Under the pieces are notes generated by a model. The model saw only the letters and a program-made list of their open reading frames with translations, was not told the origin of the DNA and did no database searches. 64,000 bases of DNA from Bizionia sp. M204. Its GTDB lineage: Bacteria; Bacteroidota; Bacteroidia; Flavobacteriales; Flavobacteriaceae. A program made the translations under genes and the position numbers. Of the stretch, positions 41,671 through 46,752 are shown in pieces; position 1 is the stretch's first letter, and every line of letters starts with the position of its first letter. The stretch spans positions 62,001 to 126,000 of the forward strand of contig NZ_CP046242.1 of assembly GCF_023205095.1 (NCBI RefSeq), written 5' to 3'.

Positions 41671-41743
41671 CGCGGGATAGAGCAGTAGGTAGCTCGTCGG
41701 GCTCATAACCCGAAGGTCACTGGTTCGAGTCCAGTTCCCGCTA
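41671..41743 (+). tRNA. Initiator tRNA-Met (anticodon CAT)
   Basis: All arms fold: acceptor CGCGGGA with TCCCGCT, D-stem GAGC/GCTC, anticodon stem TCGGG/CCCGA around CTCATAA, and T-stem ACTGG/CCAGT around TTCGAGT. The first acceptor pair is a mismatch (C1 with T72), and the anticodon stem carries three GC pairs in a row; both are marks of the initiator tRNA. CCA is not encoded (the next bases are CTA). Its 3' end is the attachment site of the element that follows. Confidence 0.96.
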
Positions 41744-41744
41744 C
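41729..41744 (+). other. Left attachment site in the tRNA-fMet 3' end
   Basis: GTCCAGTTCCCGCTAC in the tRNA recurs with one change at 46737-46752, on the far side of an integrase gene. This copy pairs correctly in the T-stem and acceptor stem, so the tRNA stays functional. Confidence 0.75.
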
Positions 41745-41747
41745 TAT

Positions 41748-41773
41748 AAAGCCCAGTTTTACTGGGCTTTTTT
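41748..41773 (+). terminator. Terminator after tRNA-fMet
   Basis: A ten-base stem AAAGCCCAGT/ACTGGGCTTT with a TTT loop and T tail starts four bases after the tRNA. It lies inside the element, so the element brings its own terminator for the tRNA. Confidence 0.88.
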
Positions 41774-41777
41774 CATT

Positions 41778-41799
41778 TTGTAGTAATATTGTAGTAAAA
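41778..41799 (+). repeat. Left tandem 11-base repeats (candidate integrase arm sites)
   Basis: TTGTAGTAATA (41778-41788) is followed at once by TTGTAGTAAAA (41789-41799). The same unit, with C in place of the second T of GTAGT, is found twice in tandem near the right end (46591-46612) and in the same orientation. Such direct repeats near core sites are typical arm-type sites of tyrosine integrases. Confidence 0.65.
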
Positions 41800-41839
41800 C
41801 TGTCTTATTTAAAAGTGAATCTATCAATTTTGGTTATTC

Positions 41840-41986
41840 TTATCTACTTGGCTGTTTTAACCATTGTTTAATATTATACTGATTCGATAGTATTCGTTTT
41901 GCTTCTGATGGATTTCCAGCTTCAACGCTAACCGTAATAGCTGTTCCTGTTCCCTCAATTCTAATTTTACCTGTGTATGTTGCCAT
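41840..41986 (-). CDS. Small 48-residue protein of the element
   Basis: The reading frame runs from ATG at 41986 to TAA at 41840 and encodes 48 residues: MATYTGKIRIEGTGTAITV, then a helix-like part SEAKRILSNQYNIKQWLKQPSR. The sequence looks like a real small beta-strand plus helix protein and not random. It lies 18 bases downstream of the serine recombinase on the same strand, so the two are likely co-transcribed. I recall similar small proteins in flavobacterial elements but know no function. Confidence 0.65.
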   Translation of the reverse strand: MATYTGKIRIEGTGTAITVSVEAGNPSEAKRILSNQYNIKQWLKQPSR

Positions 41987-44360: not shown

Positions 44361-44739
44361 AATTTTAATAATTTATATCTAGCTTATTATAAAACGCTAT
44401 TAGTCCATACAAGAGGTTTAATCAAGCGTTACTATAATATGTATCAAAAAATATTTCAAAGTGAAGGTTTTGACGCAAATTTCCTGAAAAAAAATTTTAC
44501 CGCTAATATCTATTGCATGACAAACGTGTCACACCTGATTATAAATATTAAAAAATCACTAAAAGTTCAAGTAGAGGTGGGAGGGTGGTTCTGTTTATGA
44601 GAATTATATAGCTATAAGGAGCGATACGAGAATCGCATTAATCATACTAAACGCATGTAGAATCAATGAAAATTATAAGCTGTACCAGGTCCTGATGCAT
44701 CTTAATTAAAATATCATCCTTTGAGTGGGAACGTGTCGT
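44361..44739. other. Non-coding region of the element, candidate origin or control region
   Basis: No gene is seen in these 379 bases. The region holds several inverted repeats: AACGCT/AGCGTT (44393-44398, 44425-44430), TGACA-AACG-TGTCA (44518-44531), the palindrome TATAGCTATA (44607-44616) and GCGAT/ATCGC (44621-44636). It lies between the HTH gene and the HUH-like gene, a natural place for an origin or nick site. Confidence 0.45.
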
Positions 44740-45255
44740 TTAGTAACTAAAACCATCTTTGTTAAAATATGCTCTGTAATAATTTATAAGATTCTCTCTG
44801 TTTATATATTCAGATTTGCTAATGGTAAATGTATTTAGACCATGTTTCCCTTTATCTGCATGCGCCTTTATAGTTTGCCTTGAGATACCGATTAATTTTT
44901 CTGCTTGTGAGTAGTTATAAGCATCTTCTGTTAGTGATTTAATAAATTCAAGTGTTTTTGTGTCATCGCCAAAAACCGCACCTTTTGGCATGCTCTGTAT
45001 GGTTAATTCTGCGTCTTCTATATATTTATTAAAGTCTTTTACTACTCTTAAAGCGGAATCAATACACGTTTCTGTTTGTTCTAGTAGTGTTCTGCTTCCT
45101 AAACGAATTCTTTTAAAAGTTTCATCAAGTTCTTTGGGATTGATACTGTTCCCGTAAGATATTAAAGCTTCCATAATCTGCTTCTGTTCAACCTTACTCA
45201 ATTTTCCTTTTTCCGCTAGTTGAAATACAGAAATGAAGATTTCTTTAGTGTTCAT
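44740..45255 (-). CDS. HTH protein following the integrase (possible excisionase/regulator)
   Basis: This 171-residue protein has a helical N-terminal part and a C-terminal HTH of the excisionase/MerR-like kind (YNYSQAEKLIGISRQTIKAHADKG, then FTISKSEYINRENLINYYRAYF). It overlaps the integrase stop by one base (TAATG), so it is co-translated. The position supports a role in controlling integration or excision. Confidence 0.7.
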   Translation of the reverse strand: MNTKEIFISVFQLAEKGKLSKVEQKQIMEALISYGNSINPKELDETFKRIRLGSRTLLEQTETCIDSALRVVKDFNKYIEDAELTIQSMPKGAVFGDDTKTLEFIKSLTEDAYNYSQAEKLIGISRQTIKAHADKGKHGLNTFTISKSEYINRENLINYYRAYFNKDGFSY

Positions 45256-46562
45256 TAATTTGCTGGCTTTTCATCAAAAATACTAACATATTCTGGATTT
45301 ATATCCCTTGAATAATCGATATATTTTTGTAGAGTTGATAGTTTTTCGTGGCTAGTGTAGCTCATTAATTCGTGTAAAGGTACTGTGTTAATTAAATTAG
45401 TAATAAAAGTGTCACGCCCTCTGTGCATGGTTAACAATTCATAGCGTTTCAGATTTTTCCCTGTTTCGTCTTCTGCAAGTGTGAGTTGGTCAAATAGTTT
45501 GGATTCTTTTAGTAATTTGTGTAAGACCTGATTTGTATAGGCATTACTATAAATTTTAAGATTATAATTTAGTGTCTCTAAAATTTCAATTGCCATTTTT
45601 GAAAGTGGTATAGTAGCAATTTTCCCTATTTTTCCTTTAGTTTTTTGAGCAACATGTTTGTAAACTTTACTTTCTTTAAAATCGCAAATAAATCCTTTAT
45701 CAAAATTTTCGATATCCTTCCATCTAAAACCAGTTAAACAGGAAAATATGAAAATCAATTTCACATTTTCTTTTACGTCATTGTCGAACTTGTAATTATA
45801 AAGTTCATGAATTTCATTGATTGATAGAGTAGTTTTTATTTTTGAAGTTACTGTAATTTCATTCCTTTTATAACGCTTTAAAAAGTTATCATCTTTAATA
45901 AGCTCTTTTTCTTTTAAGTACGTAAAGTAGCCTGTTAGTACTTCAAATCTTTTATCTACACTTGCAGGTTTTAAGTTTCCTTTAGTCTTAAATTTATATA
46001 TAACTCCATCGTGAATGATTTGTTTTTTCCGTTTGATGGTCAGCCATGAATGAAAATGATTTAGCCAATCATTATTAGTTACATCTGAATTTTTGAGTGT
46101 TGTTTGATGTTCAGCTTCGTAATCTTCAATAGTGCTTCTAAATGTTCCGTATGTTTTATAGCTTTCATTTGATTTGTTTCCACGTTCAACCAGTTGTACT
46201 CGTTTCCGTTCCATATATTCATCGTAGTGGTCCAGGAACAGGCTTGTTTTAACTTGTGCTTTGCCATCTTTAAGCCTGTCGAGGTTACTTTTAAGTTCAT
46301 CAGCTGTAATAGTAGCACCATCTTTAAGATATTCAGAAACGATGTTATCTGCCTTTACTAGCCAATCACTGATAATTTTGTTCATATCAGTAGAATTGGG
46401 AACATCAATGCTAACTCTATTGTTTTTGTAGTCCCATTGTATGAACTTTTTACTTCGGTCTTTTGATTTAGAAATCTTTACACCAGTAGGAAATCTCATC
46501 ACGCCTTTGGTTCCGTAGTAAATTACAACTGAACCGTTGTTAACTTTAGGTTTGCAATACAT
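45255..46562 (-). CDS. Tyrosine-type site-specific integrase
   Basis: This 435-residue protein has an arm-binding N-terminus, a SAM-like core-binding domain (about 110-210) and a catalytic domain. Active-site parts are seen: Arg in CLTGFRWKDIENF, His-x-x-Arg in MHRGRDTF, and His and Tyr in TSHEKLSTLQKYIDYS. It should join the element to the tRNA-fMet 3' end. Its start is 174 bases from the right attachment site. Confidence 0.93.
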   Translation of the reverse strand: MYCKPKVNNGSVVIYYGTKGVMRFPTGVKISKSKDRSKKFIQWDYKNNRVSIDVPNSTDMNKIISDWLVKADNIVSEYLKDGATITADELKSNLDRLKDGKAQVKTSLFLDHYDEYMERKRVQLVERGNKSNESYKTYGTFRSTIEDYEAEHQTTLKNSDVTNNDWLNHFHSWLTIKRKKQIIHDGVIYKFKTKGNLKPASVDKRFEVLTGYFTYLKEKELIKDDNFLKRYKRNEITVTSKIKTTLSINEIHELYNYKFDNDVKENVKLIFIFSCLTGFRWKDIENFDKGFICDFKESKVYKHVAQKTKGKIGKIATIPLSKMAIEILETLNYNLKIYSNAYTNQVLHKLLKESKLFDQLTLAEDETGKNLKRYELLTMHRGRDTFITNLINTVPLHELMSYTSHEKLSTLQKYIDYSRDINPEYVSIFDEKPAN

Positions 46563-46590
46563 TAATTGAATTTTTCACTAAAATAGTTGT

Positions 46591-46612
46591 TTGTAGCAAA
46601 ATTGTAGCAAAA
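46591..46612 (+). repeat. Right tandem 11-base repeats (candidate integrase arm sites)
   Basis: Two perfect adjacent copies of TTGTAGCAAAA lie just upstream of the integrase gene. They match the left pair (41778-41799) at all but one or two positions. Confidence 0.65.
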
Positions 46613-46736
46613 AAAGGCTAACAAATTGCAATATTATCTTAACAGCATTGTTAGTTGTTTTTTGTAAAAGTCAATAAACACAGTATTTAGTTAACAGGTT
46701 TAAGAAAATATGTTAAGCTAATAAACTATATGCTTC

Positions 46737-46752
46737 GTCCAGCTCCCGCTAC
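46737..46752 (+). other. Right attachment site (tRNA-fMet 3' end copy)
   Basis: GTCCAGCTCCCGCTAC differs from the tRNA copy by one base, which would break a T-stem pair; it is therefore not under tRNA selection. It is framed by a six-base inverted repeat GCTTCG (46732-46737) and CGAAGC (46752-46757). Confidence 0.72.

Follow-up and report, generated by a model that had tools for sequence, protein, structure and literature searches.

The window analysed here is a stretch of 64,000 nt from Bizionia sp. M204 (GCF_023205095.1, NZ_CP046242.1, positions 62,001–126,000; all coordinates below are window positions). It contains an integrative element of 5,008 bp (41745–46752), seated at the 3′ end of the gene for the initiator tRNA-Met (tRNA-fMet). 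This target gene of the host is intact, lies on the forward strand at 41671–41744 (tRNA-Met(cat) by ARAGORN; Rfam tRNA, 66 bits) and is the only tRNA gene that ARAGORN called in the window. Its last 16 nt (41729–41744, +) form the left attachment repeat, while the right attachment repeat, identical to the tRNA end at 15 of 16 positions, is found at 46737–46752 (+). When the window was searched for the 16-mer, with one position left open and at most one mismatch, just these two sites were recovered, and 100 shuffles gave an expectation of zero. The G+C content of the element is 30.8%, compared with 34.3% in the rest of the window. A first-pass annotation of this DNA had described the tRNA-fMet end as repeated 5 kb away beside a tyrosine integrase; the 15/16 repeat and an integrase scoring over the PF00589 cut-off bear this out.

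A second repeat of 22 nt, TTGTAGYAAWATTGTAGYAAAA, lies inside both element ends: the left copy consists of two tandem 11-nt units (41778–41799, +) and the right copy is at 46591–46612 (+). The copies are identical at 19 of 22 positions and are the sole two matches in the window, for which the expectation of zero is post hoc, as the pattern was taken from these very sites. Arm-type sites like these are expected for a tyrosine integrase. The first-pass annotation had also proposed looking for an empty tRNA-fMet site in relatives, and one was found: in a congener, G004 (locus L007), the tRNA end runs directly into the window's right flank, with 155 of 174 positions identical and the second terminator included. 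The locus thus has an integrase, a repeat of the target end and an unoccupied junction in a relative, as is the case for tyrosine-integrase elements at tRNA 3′ ends. Since the arm-type repeats and the uninterrupted junction add support, we consider the element real. Directly behind the tRNA, the element carried in a terminator-like hairpin (41748–41770, +); the former downstream region of the tRNA, with the original terminator (46775–46800) and the broken remnant of an older integrase, now lies at 46753–47050 (+). Four terminator-like sites were found, where 1.4 were expected.

Seven open reading frames (ORFs) occupy the element. The tyrosine integrase (45255–46562, −; 435 aa) matches PF00589 at 1.9e-8, over the cut-off, and phrog_1 at 1.9e-20; its match to the arm-binding domain PF17293 is below cut-off. 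The stop of the integrase gene is overlapped by the gene for a 171-aa protein (44740–45255, −), which has a weak C-terminal helix-turn-helix (HTH; best match 0.027) and whose position suggests an excisionase-like role. Next comes the HUH protein (P0003; 43686–44360, −) of 224 aa, comprising an N-terminal HTH and a putative Rep-type HUH domain with one catalytic tyrosine, and overlapping it is a 58-aa ORF with no family match (43541–43717, −). These are followed by a lipoprotein-like ORF of 247 aa (42765–43508, +), a probable cargo gene with no family match below 0.05 and a motif which we take, by eye, to be a lipobox. The remaining two ORFs are a small serine recombinase of the resolvase/invertase class (42005–42631, −; 208 aa; PF00239, 1.2e-15; phrog_125, DNA invertase) and a 48-aa ORF (41840–41986, −) with a weak DpnD/PcfM-like match below cut-off (0.0037) and an equally weak one to phrog_25553 (3.1e-4). 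The gene list of the first-pass annotation, which named the serine recombinase, the HTH protein and the two tiny ORFs, was therefore right in what it included, but it missed the 247-aa ORF.

Profile scans of the seven proteins gave no match to conjugation, capsid or packaging families, and no canonical relaxase was matched in Pfam, NCBIfam or PHROG; the earlier claim that conjugation genes are absent thus stands. Neither a pore nor a coupling protein of its own, as an integrative and conjugative element would have, is among the seven, and they include no PHROG for packaging hijack or capsid interference of the kind sought in phage satellites (phage-inducible chromosomal islands, P4-like and inovirus satellites). 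PADLOC had no match for six of the proteins (the integrase was left out), Rfam gave sub-threshold matches only on the element region besides the tRNA, and the element's DNA matched no phage or plasmid record. At E ≤ 1e-60, close relatives of the integrase were limited to its own genome among 299 genomes; plasmid records yielded five at 21.6–24.3% identity and viral contigs none, and the nearest among the loci compared were those of L021 (29%) and L053 (27%). For the HTH protein, viral contigs held no match; the 299 genomes gave one further weak match, which lies within a frame of 1,424 aa and was judged spurious.

In an alignment of 12 HUH sequences, H147, H149, Y190 and K193 are invariant. 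The alignment runs from an N-terminal HTH-like part through a W-x-x-F/T motif and the invariant HNH (147–149) and Y-x-x-K (190–193) motifs to a W-x-x-L-G-N-N-L tail; upstream there is a tyrosine as well as W-x-x-F. AlphaFold predicts the order β1 (94–99), helix, β2 (130–138), β3 with HNH (146–154), helix, β4 (175–180) and a helix with YxxK, which is the order of HUH Rep domains. Motif 1, HxH and YxxK accordingly follow one another as in rolling-circle Rep proteins with a single tyrosine, with low confidence around YxxK. A Foldseek search against viral models returned 18 matches at E ≤ 0.001, and among the 50 matches listed, five of the nine that carry a name are replication proteins. Sequence searches of the PDB with the HUH protein gave no match. 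The family PF23343 (REP_ORF2-G2P) matches four of the 12 HUH family members at E ≤ 1 (best 1.6e-4) and has no match to P0003 itself. Three shorter, distant relatives, retrieved by the HUH family profile at 3e-12 to 2e-6, reach the PF23343 cut-off of 27.8 bits (35.2, 30.1 and 27.8). At two loci (L054, L055) an HTH_17 protein precedes the shorter relative; L054 has a tyrosine integrase ahead of both, which gives the integrase–HTH–HUH order of the window. Motifs, predicted topology and distant kin in PF23343 place the HUH protein with the rolling-circle Rep proteins. The HUH-like protein of the first-pass annotation is hence upheld as Rep-type, not as a canonical relaxase.

A word of seven letters, CTTGTAT, is shared by the regions upstream of the HUH genes. 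In the window it occupies 44407–44413 (−), on the HUH gene's coding strand and 46–52 nt upstream of the start codon. Of 13 loci, 12 have it in the 240-nt stretch that precedes the HUH gene (the window, L022–L026, L028–L031, L033 and L052); the fragment L032 is not part of this count, and homology guided the choice of HUH start in L028 and L030. By chance, 0.028 occurrences would be expected per stretch. The runner-up among 7-mers with at least two G or C was common to seven loci, and in 200 shuffle sets none was common to more than six. According to PMC10378824, the nick site of the pC194/Rep_1 replicons is CTTGATA. We infer that CTTGTAT is a candidate nick site of the HUH protein and, as such, a putative double-strand origin. 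Farther upstream, beyond the HUH promoter, a box of the TGTGACAC/TGTCAT type was seen by eye (44517–44537, −), possibly an operator or Rep site; boxes resembling TGTGACAC/TGTCAT were also seen by eye upstream in the alignment of HUH relatives.

A small serine recombinase recurs as a partner of the HUH gene. It lies within 2.1 kb of that gene in 8 of 12 loci (the window, L022, L024, L025, L029, L031, L033 and L052); L027 (4.0 kb) and L026 (7.7 kb) bring the number within 8 kb to 10. L023, which ends behind the HUH gene, was not counted. The two genes do not share one common history, because the identities of locus pairs disagree: L024 and L025 are 87.7% identical in the HUH protein and 38.8% in the recombinase, L029 and L031 are 72.7% and 28.7% identical, respectively, while L024 and L031 are 35% identical in the HUH protein and 80% in the recombinase. 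About 135 nt, a res-like size, are conserved upstream of the recombinase genes of four relatives; the window's recombinase has the PF00239 catalytic domain and may belong to a plasmid-type resolution system. This pattern fits, but does not prove, a resolvase with its own site that is exchanged as a cassette.

The integration module beside the HUH gene varies from locus to locus. While the window has a tyrosine integrase at tRNA-fMet, L025 and L028 have a large serine integrase overlapping tRNA-Asn, L033 has a large serine integrase with no tRNA called, L029 and L052 have tandem tyrosine recombinases, and L030 has another tyrosine integrase; at the other HUH loci no integrase was noted among the ORFs read by eye. 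The first-pass annotation had proposed a search for the same gene set elsewhere; the HUH gene recurs, often with a small serine recombinase, beside differing integration enzymes. The other genes of these loci may be cargo of the elements or neighbours. They include hsdR in L018/L022 and L054 (Pfam) and in L027 and L031 (by eye), and the defence reverse transcriptase Drt8 in L019/L027 (PADLOC). In the latter (L019:3173–8416), the HUH gene is separated from the serine recombinase by Drt8 and a DUF3800-like ORF, next to a type I restriction locus. A beta-flower protein overlaps the end of the HUH gene in L030 (10476–10832; PF21784, 1.4e-26) and, by eye, in L029 (10629–10979) and L031 (10468–10818), where it occupies the place of the 58–97-aa ORF of other loci. 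A larger type of element, in which tandem tyrosine recombinases and a primase/helicase-like protein of 516–559 aa (both named by eye) accompany the HUH gene, occurs in L029 (3405–6850), L052 (3621–7779) and L032. For the L025 element, no direct repeat of a tRNA end was found, and the sequence behind tRNA-Asn in the best relative is unlike the right side of L025.

Homologues of the HUH protein were found in 2 of 99 relatives, in 4 of 397 genomes of the family and, by profile, in 14 of 395 genomes of the order, the own genome being counted each time. A two-pattern scan of GTDB species contigs, which sets a lower bound, gave at least 11 loci; viral contigs held one (IMG/VR), and plasmid and phage records none. 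Loci with two names (L018 and L022, L019 and L027, L020 and L029) were counted once. The HUH protein is therefore rare. Record titles point to Flavobacteriaceae as its hosts, except that L022 and L023 come from metagenome bins with the labels Chlorobiota and Gammaproteobacteria, respectively; the contig of L022 is assigned to the host's family in another collection. The five congeners searched (G001–G005) have no HUH gene, so the case of a relative that lacks the integrase and keeps the inner genes was not encountered.

Taken together, the locus is probably best explained as a compact integrative element that targets a tRNA gene, undergoes rolling-circle replication once excised and carries a resolvase. 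The integrase would excise the element as a circle, with the adjacent HTH protein helping as excisionase. The HUH protein, through Tyr190, would then nick the coding strand at CTTGTAT ahead of its own gene, and the nick would start rolling-circle replication of the excised circle. The small serine recombinase would resolve multimers or co-integrates into monomers, whereupon the circle could re-enter a tRNA-fMet gene. Together, HUH gene and resolvase would form the replication core, to which integration modules (tyrosine or large serine) and cargo attach, the lipoprotein in the window and defence genes in relatives. A conjugative element located elsewhere might also exploit the nick at CTTGTAT for mobilization. 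The sequence features argue for an element that is real, compact, integrative and probably functional, with a rare Rep-type HUH protein. More tentatively, and with somewhat less confidence than even, the loci may represent an undescribed family of integrated rolling-circle replicons of Flavobacteriaceae, with an HUH initiator, a CTTGTAT origin and a swappable serine resolvase, which would capture unrelated integration modules and carry cargo from one tRNA hot spot to another, antiphage defence genes (Drt8, type I restriction) included.

Several observations weigh against the preferred explanation. P0003 has no convincing family match in Pfam, NCBIfam or PHROG, and a Foldseek search of solved structures gave none at E ≤ 0.001, its top rows being unrelated proteins. 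The AlphaFold prediction is of moderate quality (pLDDT 73.5, pTM 0.57), and its weak part is the very region around YxxK. CTTGTAT is missing upstream of the HUH gene in L027; it also falls presumably within the leader of the HUH transcript, where it may act as a signal for translation or transcription. An origin in an extruded hairpin was considered and rejected: of 12 loci, three have the motif in the loop of a hairpin, where 2.5 are expected (P 0.46), and because this placement is at chance level such an origin is unsupported. In the window alone, the hairpin at CTTGTAT looked favourable, being equalled in stability by 3 of 100 shuffles; the full 379-nt upstream gap was equalled by 12 of 100 (z −1.27). 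Finally, no small serine recombinase was found in the flanks read of L028 and L030.

The HUH protein might alternatively act mainly as a non-canonical relaxase, the element being an integrative and mobilizable element (IME) that uses another element's pore, with the upstream motif as its origin of transfer. An integrase, a nicking enzyme and cargo are indeed the minimal gene set of an IME, and in Streptococcus relaxases akin to rolling-circle initiators are found in 118 of 144 IMEs, in a review that concludes that the roles of Rep and relaxase overlap (PMC5704250). The element, however, has no relaxase accessory or coupling protein. In the host genome, which is 99.88% complete, neither PF12696, a coupling-protein domain that rang in 4 of 14 controls, nor Bac_Flav_CT_G found a match; a TraM search of the host genome, in which no control rang, does not bear on this. 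As neither the TraG-D coupling domain nor Bac_Flav_CT_G was detected, a resident conjugative helper is not apparent, and we regard this explanation as unlikely. Mobilization by an outside helper, phage packaging and natural transformation are possible routes between cells.

Least probable is that the element is a single-stranded DNA (ssDNA) phage satellite, in which Rep would make phage-like circular DNA for a helper to package. Filamentous-phage satellites are small and bear a Rep, and the fold and family kin of the HUH protein include replication proteins of microviruses and filamentous phages. Against this stand the seven proteins, devoid of capsid and packaging matches, and the 50,697 phage records, which held neither a DNA nor a protein match, the one viral relative coming from IMG/VR alone. 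A Zot-type ATPase match in the host (G000:C1:261743–261955) is marginal (20.5 vs 20.3 bits), and of 14 controls lacking such phages, 5 also ring with this model. A decaying remnant that is no longer mobile is also very improbable. The 58-aa ORF is shorter than the 90–97-aa relatives that follow the HUH gene in L022, L026 and L027, and a broken integrase remnant lies directly behind the element, at a site crowded with integrase pieces. Yet the frames of the integrase, HUH protein and serine recombinase are complete, the element retains its two ends and its two arm sites, and the length of the ORF may not matter, since its counterparts in L028 and L033 are short too.

Firmicutes are already known to harbour integrative elements with a rolling-circle initiator (PMC5704250); the suggestion of a new kind of mobilizable or satellite element is therefore supported only in part, while the HUH family and its pairing with a serine recombinase look undescribed within our searches. 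According to the same source, the Streptococcus IMEs with Rep_trans/MobT, Rep_2, PHA00330 or Viral_Rep proteins resemble the present element in being short, in combining an integrase with a Rep-like protein without a pore, and in inserting in many cases at the ends of tRNA or other genes; they differ in belonging to Firmicutes, in their Rep families and in often having a TcpA coupling protein. The window element, by comparison, is from Flavobacteriaceae, has a PF23343-like HUH protein that bears an HTH domain, has a small serine recombinase paired with it, and lacks a coupling protein. Tn5520 is similarly small. Together with NBU1, NBU2 and Tn4555, it shares with the window element the phylum Bacteroidota and a tyrosine integrase, NBU1 and NBU2 being at tRNA 3′ ends; NBU1, NBU2 and Tn4555 differ in their MobP-type relaxases (PMC5704250). 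By contrast with these Bacteroides mobilizable elements, the HUH protein of the window has no relaxase match and a single tyrosine in YxxK, and a serine recombinase is added.

The ssDNA-phage replication-associated proteins of PF23343 resemble P0003 in motif order and, via the shorter relatives, in profile, while P0003 has an added N-terminal HTH region, a conserved tail of the DWDILGNNL type and no accompanying phage genes. The pC194/Rep_1 plasmids (PMC10378824) are alike in having CTTGATA, compared with CTTGTAT, upstream of rep; the window element has another Rep family and is chromosomally integrated, and the likeness of seven letters may be convergence or chance. Two further candidates were rejected on parts of their descriptions: the marine, 4.6-kb Charybdis elements (PMC12324425), with other gene content and no replication protein, and the Riemerella 10K island (PMC6764341), at tRNA-Arg and not of the same kind. 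No description of the HUH and serine-recombinase family was found in the literature searched, which held few subscription journals. Within the searches made, three features look new: the Flavobacteriaceae HUH family, the candidate origin upstream of its genes, and the loose association of these genes with integrases and serine recombinases. Small non-conjugative integrated elements of Bacteroidota usually remain anonymous genomic islands because their nicking enzymes evade family models. The HUH family and the nick-site word provide a handle for finding such elements, and with it their replication after excision and the movement of defence genes can be addressed; the mixing and matching of HUH genes, serine recombinases and integrases clearly illustrates modular exchange within an element of 4–5 kb.

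The tRNA-fMet site is an integration hot spot. In all five congeners (L004–L008) a different integrase-like gene starts or ends right behind tRNA-fMet; three of the proteins pass the PF00589 cut-off, that of L007 is slightly under it (26.9 vs 27.1 bits), and that of L006 has SAM-like integrase domains only (Pfam). At least three integrase types are present across these five sites. To the right of the element, the compared stretch is a mosaic, in which nt 5–178 match the integrase region of L007 and nt 190–306 that of L005 (110/117); the element was therefore inserted ahead of an older, now broken resident. As a mosaic of the fMet integrases of two congeners, first L007-like and then L005-like, 46753–47050 is a sign of repeated occupation of the tRNA.

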